From contig JAPOXK010000021.1 in assembly GCA_026707145.1 (NCBI GenBank), positions 1 through 64,000 on the forward strand: a stretch of DNA of 64,000 nt, read 5' to 3'. Of this stretch, positions 20,026-23,666 are shown piece after piece. The translations under genes and the position numbers were made by a program. Numbering within the stretch: position 1 is the first letter of the stretch; each line of letters opens with the position of its first letter. The notes below the pieces were generated by a model. The model made no database searches. It was not told the DNA's origin and saw only the letters and a list, made by a program, of their open reading frames with translations. The stretch is from Chloroflexota bacterium. GTDB lineage: Bacteria > Chloroflexota > Dehalococcoidia > Bin125.

Positions 20026-21246
20026 TCAGCGTTCGTACGGGATGGTCTCCACGTCCTCGATCTCGTCGTCCCGGGTGAACCGCCAGATGCCGATGTATCC
20101 CCGCTGGAGGTCTCCGTTCACATCCCAGTCGATAGAGTTGGCGGCGCCCTCGTAGTCGACGTCTCCGCCGGCCCGGATGATGCGCAGGGCGCGGGCGACA
20201 CCCTCCGGTCCAGGGAGCACCCGCTCGCCCGGAGCGCTCCCGACGCCGCGCAGGGCGTCGCGAATGGCGATCCCCCCGGCGCTGCCCGCAGCCTCTGCCG
20301 CCAGCACGATGGCGATGGCGGCGTCGTAGGTTTCCTTCACGTAGCTGGCCGCCGTGCCCTCGCCGTATGCGTCGCGGAAGGCGGCGTCCCAGGCAACGGC
20401 GGAAGCGCTGTCGTGCGAAGGGCCGCTGGCGGTCCCGTACATGCCGGCCAGCCTGCCGCCGCCCACGGCCGCGGCCAGCTCCGCCCGTCTGAGCGCGTCG
20501 CCGAAGACGAACTGATCGTAGAGGCCGCTCGCCAGCGCCTCGGGGAGGATGACCTCGGCCTCGGGCCAGAAGGTGAGCAGGACGAGCGCTTGGGCGCCGC
20601 CCCGCACGCTCTCCTCAAGCAGGTCGCGGTAGCTCTCGCGGAGCTCGGCCGGGGAGGCGACGAGCACGATGTCCCCCGTCCAGGCTTGCCCGAAGGCCTC
20701 CGCCAGGCCCTGACCCCAGGCGTCGTCGCGGTAGATCACGCCCACGTTGTCGAAGCCCCGCTCCCGTGTGAGCCGCGCCAGGGCGGGGCCCTGGGCGACA
20801 TCGGAGAGGGCCGTACGGAAGAAGAGGTCGCGGTCCGCGTGCAGCGTGAGCAGGGGAGAAGAAGCCGAAGGGCTGATCACGAGGACATCGGCCGGCGCCG
20901 CGACCTCGATCACCACGAGCGAGTCCGCGCTGCTGTTGGGACCAACGATGGCGTGGACGCCCTCGTCCTCGATCAGGCGGCGCGCCTCCGCCTCGGGGTG
21001 GAGAGTGTCTCCCTCCGCGACTTCGACCGGCCGGCTGAGCACGCCGCCGCCCGCATTCACATGCGTGATGGCGAGTGTGAAGGCGCGCAGCCGGTCGCGG
21101 GCCGTCTCCGTTTGCGTCTCGCTGTTGACGAGCATCACCCCGATCTTCAGCGGCGTGATTTCCCTGCCGTCACTGCAGGCCGCGATCGCGCTCGCCAGCA
21201 ACGCGACGCCTGCCGCGAGGGCCAGCGCGACGCCCGCACTCCTCAT
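20026..21246 (-). CDS. periplasmic substrate-binding lipoprotein (LivJ/Peripla_BP_6 type)
   Basis: A 406-residue binding protein of the type used by branched-chain amino acid ABC importers and some sensors. The start at 21246 has AGGAGG upstream and yields a lipoprotein signal (hydrophobic stretch, then SAIAAC). The mature part is a type I bilobed fold with VGPNSSADS and ISPSASSP at the ligand cleft. No permease or ATPase gene is nearby. The gene starts 21 bp after the sensor-regulator gene on the same strand, so it is probably co-expressed with it. It may feed a transporter encoded elsewhere or serve as a ligand sensor. Confidence 0.85.
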   Translation of the reverse strand: MRSAGVALALAAGVALLASAIAACSDGREITPLKIGVMLVNSETQTETARDRLRAFTLAITHVNAGGGVLSRPVEVAEGDTLHPEAEARRLIEDEGVHAIVGPNSSADSLVVIEVAAPADVLVISPSASSPLLTLHADRDLFFRTALSDVAQGPALARLTRERGFDNVGVIYRDDAWGQGLAEAFGQAWTGDIVLVASPAELRESYRDLLEESVRGGAQALVLLTFWPEAEVILPEALASGLYDQFVFGDALRRAELAAAVGGGRLAGMYGTASGPSHDSASAVAWDAAFRDAYGEGTAASYVKETYDAAIAIVLAAEAAGSAGGIAIRDALRGVGSAPGERVLPGPEGVARALRIIRAGGDVDYEGAANSIDWDVNGDLQRGYIGIWRFTRDDEIEDVETIPYER

Positions 21247-21266
21247 GAACTCCGTCACTCCTCCTC

Positions 21267-23196: not shown

Positions 23197-23235
23197 ATGA
23201 TAGCGTGTCCCGGCGAAAACTCATACAAAACTCAT
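23197..23235 (-). promoter_or_regulatory. promoter with PhoB-type tandem direct repeat upstream of the sensor-regulator
   Basis: On the minus strand a -10 box TATCAT (23202-23197) is preceded by two exact copies of ATGAGTTTT at 23235-23227 and 23224-23216, spaced 11 bp. The proximal copy occupies the -35 position, which has no good hexamer of its own. PhoB/OmpR-type winged helices bind 11-bp-spaced direct repeats in just this position at activated promoters. The 23118-23426 interval holds this element and AT-rich sequence, but no gene. Confidence 0.55.
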
Positions 23236-23426
23236 GGATATTTTGATTACTGCTCACGGCAGTCTTACACCGCATCGGTAGACTGTGGGCCGATTGGTCC
23301 ATCAGGGAGAGGCGCGGAGGGCCGCATGCACCACAGCGGACTGTCCCTGCCGAATCCTTGCCGTGTCCCTCGGAGGGAGTGGAGGGATCGGTGCGATCGG
23401 CGATCCCTCGATCGAAGGAGGACCCA

Positions 23427-23666
23427 ATGAAACGCTGGTGCATAGAGGTCGGCGAACGGCTGGGCTGGGCCGTCGCCATGATCGGGTGGGGCTGCGCCTT
23501 GGTGCTGGTCGCCGGGCTCCGCCTGATCGCCCGCCCCCTCCCCCGGCTGGGCCGCGGCGTGCGCCTCGGCCGGGCGGCGCAGCCCTTCTTCCCCGACGGG
23601 GATCTCGGCCCGCGTCCGGCTGTGCGCCCGCGGCACCCACGGGGCCAAGGTCCTTCACCGGACTAG
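23427..23666 (+). CDS. small single-span membrane protein
   Basis: A 79-residue ORF with an excellent ribosome site (GAAGGAGG, 7 nt before ATG). Residues 1-13 are amphipathic (MKRWCIEVGERLG), followed by one transmembrane segment (about 14-36) and a Pro/Arg-rich basic tail. It is transcribed divergently from the sensor-regulator. Its N-terminus resembles the tiny ORFs at 27179 and 28453 (M-x-x-W ... G-x-x-L-G). No family recognised. Confidence 0.6.
   Translation: MKRWCIEVGERLGWAVAMIGWGCALVLVAGLRLIARPLPRLGRGVRLGRAAQPFFPDGDLGPRPAVRPRHPRGQGPSPD

Follow-up and report, generated by a model that had tools for sequence, protein, structure and literature searches.

The regulators closest to the one described here are winged-helix proteins of the OmpR/PhoB type. 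PhoB acts at the pho box, in which 11-bp direct repeats of CTGTCAT are read head-to-tail by winged helices; the box stands in for the -35 element, with its end about 10-11 nt from the -10 box, and an 11-nt gap between box and -10 is characteristic of activated pho-box promoters. In the crystal, Arg201 of PhoB hydrogen-bonds a guanine (PMC3973317). The same 11-bp phase is found in the GlnR box, GTnAC-n6-GTnAC (5+6 bp; PMC10704036), and comparable direct repeats of GTRAC-like sites make up the MtrA box, G/T-T-G/A-A-C-C-N5-G-T-G/T-A-C (PMC5650626). PhoP of M. tuberculosis binds as a tandem dimer to TCACAGC-n4, a 7+4 = 11-bp direct repeat, and binds cooperatively to three and four such repeats (PMC4832192). 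Some response regulators, GlnR included, have an atypical receiver, and receivers that lack the DD pair and the K are termed pseudo-receivers (PMC12632262).

The stretch of DNA analysed here (“the window,” 64 kb) encodes on its minus strand P0001 (21267..23117), a 616-aa fused regulator with the Pfam architecture PAS-HisKA-HATPase-REC-Trans_reg_C. As in hybrid histidine kinases, HisKA, HATPase_c, and REC lie in one chain, and the C-terminal Trans_reg_C winged helix (PF00486, E 2.2e-16, residues 533-609) is the PhoB/OmpR-type domain that a first-pass annotation of this DNA had assigned to the gene. We place the start at ATG 23117, since the relative L033 uses the corresponding ATG, which closely follows a stop codon; this comparison led us to reject TTG 23228, to which the reading frame is open and which lies inside the repeat described below. 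Nearly all of the ~105 homologues carry ~175 additional N-terminal residues, which in L032 constitute a GAF domain; this domain is absent from both the window protein and L033. The next gene in the operon (20026..21258, minus strand; start GTG 21258 or ATG 21246) begins 8-20 nt past the P0001 stop codon and encodes a lipoprotein-type substrate-binding protein (Peripla_BP_6 in Pfam), which may provide the ligand input for the sensor. In L032, a Peripla_BP_6 gene also adjoins the regulator, but in convergent orientation. The downstream neighbours of the homologues include no evident common gene, so no conserved regulon emerges from them.

Upstream of P0001 lie the two exact copies of ATGAGTTTT in 11-bp phase that had originally drawn attention to this promoter (element ATGAGTTTTGTATGAGTTTT, 23235-23216, minus strand). 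At ≤3 mismatches the 20-bp element has no other match in the window (0 expected, 100 shuffles) or across the 2.42-Mb genome, and when the 250 nt upstream were shuffled with dinucleotides preserved, 12 of 5000 shuffles contained a 9/9 repeat at spacing 10-12. The repeat is only half of a larger array: two further half-sites, GTAAG at 23268 and GTGAG at 23257, precede it on the minus strand in the same 11-bp phase. From 23268 to 23197 this strand reads, in order, GTAAGACTGCC GTGAGCAGTAA TCAAAATATCC ATGAGTTTTGT ATGAGTTTTCG CCGGGACACGC TATCAT, that is, two 11-bp direct-repeat pairs set 33 bp apart. Half-site 1 (GTAAGACTGCC, 23258..23268) and half-site 2 (GTGAGCAGTAA, 23247..23257) were located by the array scan and form the distal pair; a spacer slot (TCAAAATATCC, 23236..23246) maintains the pair-to-pair distance, which is 32-33 bp across homologues. 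The two repeat copies are half-site 3 (ATGAGTTTTGT, 23225..23235) and, at the -35 position, half-site 4 (ATGAGTTTTCG, 23214..23224). The four cores are GTAAG, GTGAG, ATGAG, and ATGAG, and their joint score was unmatched in any of 2000 dinucleotide-preserving shuffles.

The promoter itself has the layout of a class II activator-dependent promoter, with a box at the -35 position and a good -10 but no -35 hexamer. The -10 box TATCAT (23202-23197, minus strand) matches TATAAT at 5/6 positions, and L033 has TATAAT at the identical place; no TTGACA-like hexamer occurs 15-19 bp upstream of it, the best candidate (3/6) being at background level. In these respects the first-pass annotation was accurate. 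The distance from half-site 4 to the -10 is 22 nt in the window, L033, and L034 alike. The pattern TGAGTTTT-N12-STATNAT has only eight exact matches across 393 genomes, and a scan of both strands of the 64-kb window returned no second array.

We then considered 101 non-redundant homologue promoters, each taken from the true start of its gene. Pairs of RTGA are strongly over-represented at the spacings of the array, with 35 seen against 2.2 expected at 11 bp, 18 against 2.3 at 22 bp, 38 against 2.2 at 32 bp, and 20 against 2.2 at 43 bp; the opposite strand of the same promoters shows no RTGA spacing peak. This phasing is present in every recognition-helix class, the small-residue class having been tested with the window left out. 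An iteratively fitted model of four half-sites (pair spacing 10-12, inner half-sites of the pairs 20-23 apart, last half-site 20-24 nt before the -10) fits 89 of the 101 promoters at ≥8 bits. It places 79 of them above the 99% shuffle threshold, compared with 2.5% of 393 other upstream regions, a control set that includes some from tandem paralogues or neighbours. A convincing array is missing in the remaining 22 promoters, including that of the same-genome paralogue L115. The window array scores 34.9, above all 2020 shuffles. The PhoB/OmpR-type 11-bp architecture originally proposed is therefore borne out, with phased arrays before ~80% of homologous genes. The exact window repeat, on the other hand, recurs in none of the other homologue promoters searched, and what is conserved family-wide is the arrangement of four phased half-sites and not two perfect copies.

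The closest relatives illustrate this well, and the array of each was unmatched in 1000 shuffles. L033 (66% identity, no GAF) has GTGAT-GTGAG-ATTAA-GTGAG followed at 22 nt by TATAAT; L034 has GTGAG-GTGAT-GTGAA-ATGAG and then TATAGT; and L032 (73% identity) has ATGAG-GTGAG-ATGAA-ATGAG and then TACAAT. A second L032 array (GTAAG-GTGAG-GTTAA-GTGAG) lies 2.5 kb upstream, where an intact-looking array and promoter (L032:850-1080) precede a decayed GAF-less kinase-regulator gene, apparently the ghost of the window gene's orthologue. Slot 1 is conserved in L033, L034, and the L032 relic, and slot 2 holds GTGAG or GTGAT in L033, L034, and L032. Slot 3 is ATTAAATCAGT in L033 and GTTAAATCAAT in the L032 relic, while slot 4 is GTGAGTTTT in L033 and ATGAGTTTT in L034. 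From these slots we conclude that half-site 4 and the phase are old, and that the perfect match between half-sites 3 and 4 is a peculiarity of the window lineage.

Residue 584 of the recognition helix (codon 21366..21368, minus strand) is Ser in the window protein and Lys or Arg in most homologues; it is the equivalent of PhoB Arg201, because the corresponding PmrA Asn196 precedes a conserved L-R-x-K (PMC3973317). Where it is Lys or Arg, base 5 of the half-site is C in 45 of 48 cases; where it is Ser, Thr, Ala, or Asn, base 5 is G in 19 of 20. Overall concordance is thus 64/68, and masking bases 5 and 6 during site finding leaves the relation unchanged. MtrA, which has Arg at this position, agrees with the Lys/Arg-to-C rule in having GTRAC-like sites (PMC5650626).

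On this sequence evidence, we consider it highly likely that the array is a four-subunit OmpR/PhoB-type autoregulatory operator for the fused regulator just downstream. As in other targets of this type, direct-repeat half-sites at 10-11 bp stand upstream of the promoter. The winged helices at the C terminus of the fused kinase-regulator would occupy the four half-sites head-to-tail, presumably as two head-to-tail dimers on one face of the DNA, with the 33 bp between pairs corresponding to about three helical turns. The proximal pair would sit at the -35 position, where half-site 4 would take the place of the -35 element and leave a gap of ~11 nt to the -10, the arrangement of class II PhoB-type activation. 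Regulator and co-transcribed lipoprotein would then be under autogenous control, probably positive. The likeness to PhoB extends to the 11-bp direct repeats, the replacement of the -35, the gap to the -10, and the variable recognition-helix residue at the Arg201 position (PMC3973317). The window nevertheless does not contain a pho box: its half-site is RTGAG, not CTGTCAT, there are two pairs 33 bp apart, the regulator is fused to a kinase, and Ser occupies the 201 position. It differs from the M. tuberculosis PhoP site in its core, and in that the pairs are set apart by an extra turn instead of forming four consecutive repeats.

The first-pass annotation had predicted positive autoregulation. 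Regulation of the gene by its own product is well supported by the arrays and by the helix co-variation; the positive sign is likely in the window's clade, where activation is suggested by the lack of a -35-like hexamer. We regard as unlikely, though worth bearing in mind, that the same operator serves negative autoregulation, with bound regulator blocking RNA polymerase at the -35/-10 and limiting its own synthesis. Half-site 4 is located where sigma region 4 would bind, and K-class paralogues carry within this half-site a -35-like TTGTRA (TTGTAA or TTGTGA) at 17 bp spacing, so that the sign may differ there and repression is possible. In the window's clade, however, the missing hexamer would leave little basal promoter to repress, and the 11-nt gap from box to -10 is typical of activated promoters.

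The receiver of P0001, whose losses the first-pass annotation did not see, deserves separate attention. It has A395 and G396 in place of DD and M488 in place of K, with D439 and S466 kept, whereas 99 ungapped homologues have D (96), D (95), and K (98) at the substituted positions. P0001 is the only one of the 99 without the lysine, and the only one to have lost the acidic pair and the lysine together. It thus departs from the canonical phosphorylatable OmpR/PhoB-type receiver (DD, D, T/S, K) and by sequence is a pseudo-receiver as defined in PMC12632262. GlnR also has an atypical receiver, but the P0001 receiver differs from other pseudo-receivers in being part of a hybrid protein whose kinase appears intact, and in that the phospho-Asp is present. 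A receiver that has lost the lysine and the two acidic residues that bind metal may fail to dimerise on phosphorylation, which makes phosphorylation control of the autoregulatory loop doubtful. A more speculative proposal, which we hold only tentatively and think unlikely as it stands, is that a fused kinase-regulator whose receiver is chemically dead has retained a private autoregulatory operator and even sharpened it, the loop working without Asp phosphorylation. If true, the loop would depend on how much regulator is present or on allosteric action of the sensor part, and P0001 would represent a hybrid two-component protein turned into a self-sustaining one-component switch.

The same substitutions might indicate that the gene is decaying and that its operator is a relic of former autoregulation. 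The GAF domain has also been lost, and decayed copies with surviving arrays are known, both in L032 (at 896) and in the window's own genome (C5:2546). We find decay improbable for P0001, in which the frame is intact over 616 codons and the phospho-Asp, the HisKA His, the ATPase, and the Trans_reg_C domain are all in place. Its half-sites are, moreover, nearer to the RTGAG consensus than those of its relatives.

It must also be asked whether the fused regulator is merely the target of another OmpR-type regulator, stand-alone or paralogous, that binds the array. Such regulators are numerous in these genomes, and GTnAC-n6-GTnAC, with its 11-bp phase, is the layout of both the MtrA and the GlnR box (PMC10704036, PMC5650626); K/R-class paralogues in fact have essentially the GlnR/MtrA half-site. 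The window has the spacing of these boxes, but its base 5 is G and not C, and neither GlnR nor MtrA is fused to a kinase. More importantly, the operator letter follows the recognition helix encoded just downstream and has switched with it about four separate times, which a trans-acting third party does not predict. Tests that take the tree into account favour a model in which residue 584 and base 5 evolve dependently (LR 20.7 and 19.9, p = 4e-4 and 5e-4); in 2000 tree simulations the observed concordance was never attained. When clusters at 70% identity are the only control for relatedness, p = 0.24, from a table that is too small, with few points. The co-variation argues strongly, in our view, for binding of each protein to its own promoter; binding by another regulator is quite improbable, and P0001 almost certainly controls its own gene. 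That the repeat arose by chance in an AT-rich promoter island (the region is a dip to 42% G+C) and has no regulatory meaning would suit the restriction of the exact repeat to the window, but the shuffles and the family-wide phasing refute it as far as the array is concerned, and it can be set aside almost entirely.

The principle of autoregulation is well known; this family is a natural record of protein/site co-evolution. In a regulator family that has been widely duplicated, autoregulatory promoters indicate the binding site of each protein without experiment; here ~70-80 protein/site pairs link a single recognition-helix position to a single operator base across several separate switches. 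The divergence of specificity among OmpR-type paralogues thereby becomes testable: a swap at residue 584 is expected to change RTGAG to RTGAC. For uncultured bacteria, mostly Chloroflexota, whose regulatory sites have largely yet to be mapped, the arrays also offer candidate operators.

The repeat had further been put forward as a search motif for other targets, a use that its own genome does not bear out. There, a profile of the window's operator type matches only the P0001 promoter, and the regulon of P0001 is therefore probably its own operon. The own-genome paralogues carry a different operator type, and a K-type profile matches their promoters and one kinase remnant. A weak array at C5:2546 was tried as a new target and rejected, as it precedes that decayed remnant; the corresponding locus (L186:1040-1210, C5:2546 onward) has a K-type array before a decayed kinase-regulator start and adjoins a leucine-rich-repeat gene on the opposite strand, whose product has 1197 aa. 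In relatives, ankyrin-repeat and leucine-rich-repeat lipoprotein genes that directly follow the kinase-regulator genes are themselves preceded by arrays of this type (L068:6010-7407; L058:5990-7799). In the window itself, a small divergent ORF (MKRWCIEVGERLGWAVAMIGWGCALVLV..., 23427-23666, plus strand) with a membrane-like stretch points away from the array.
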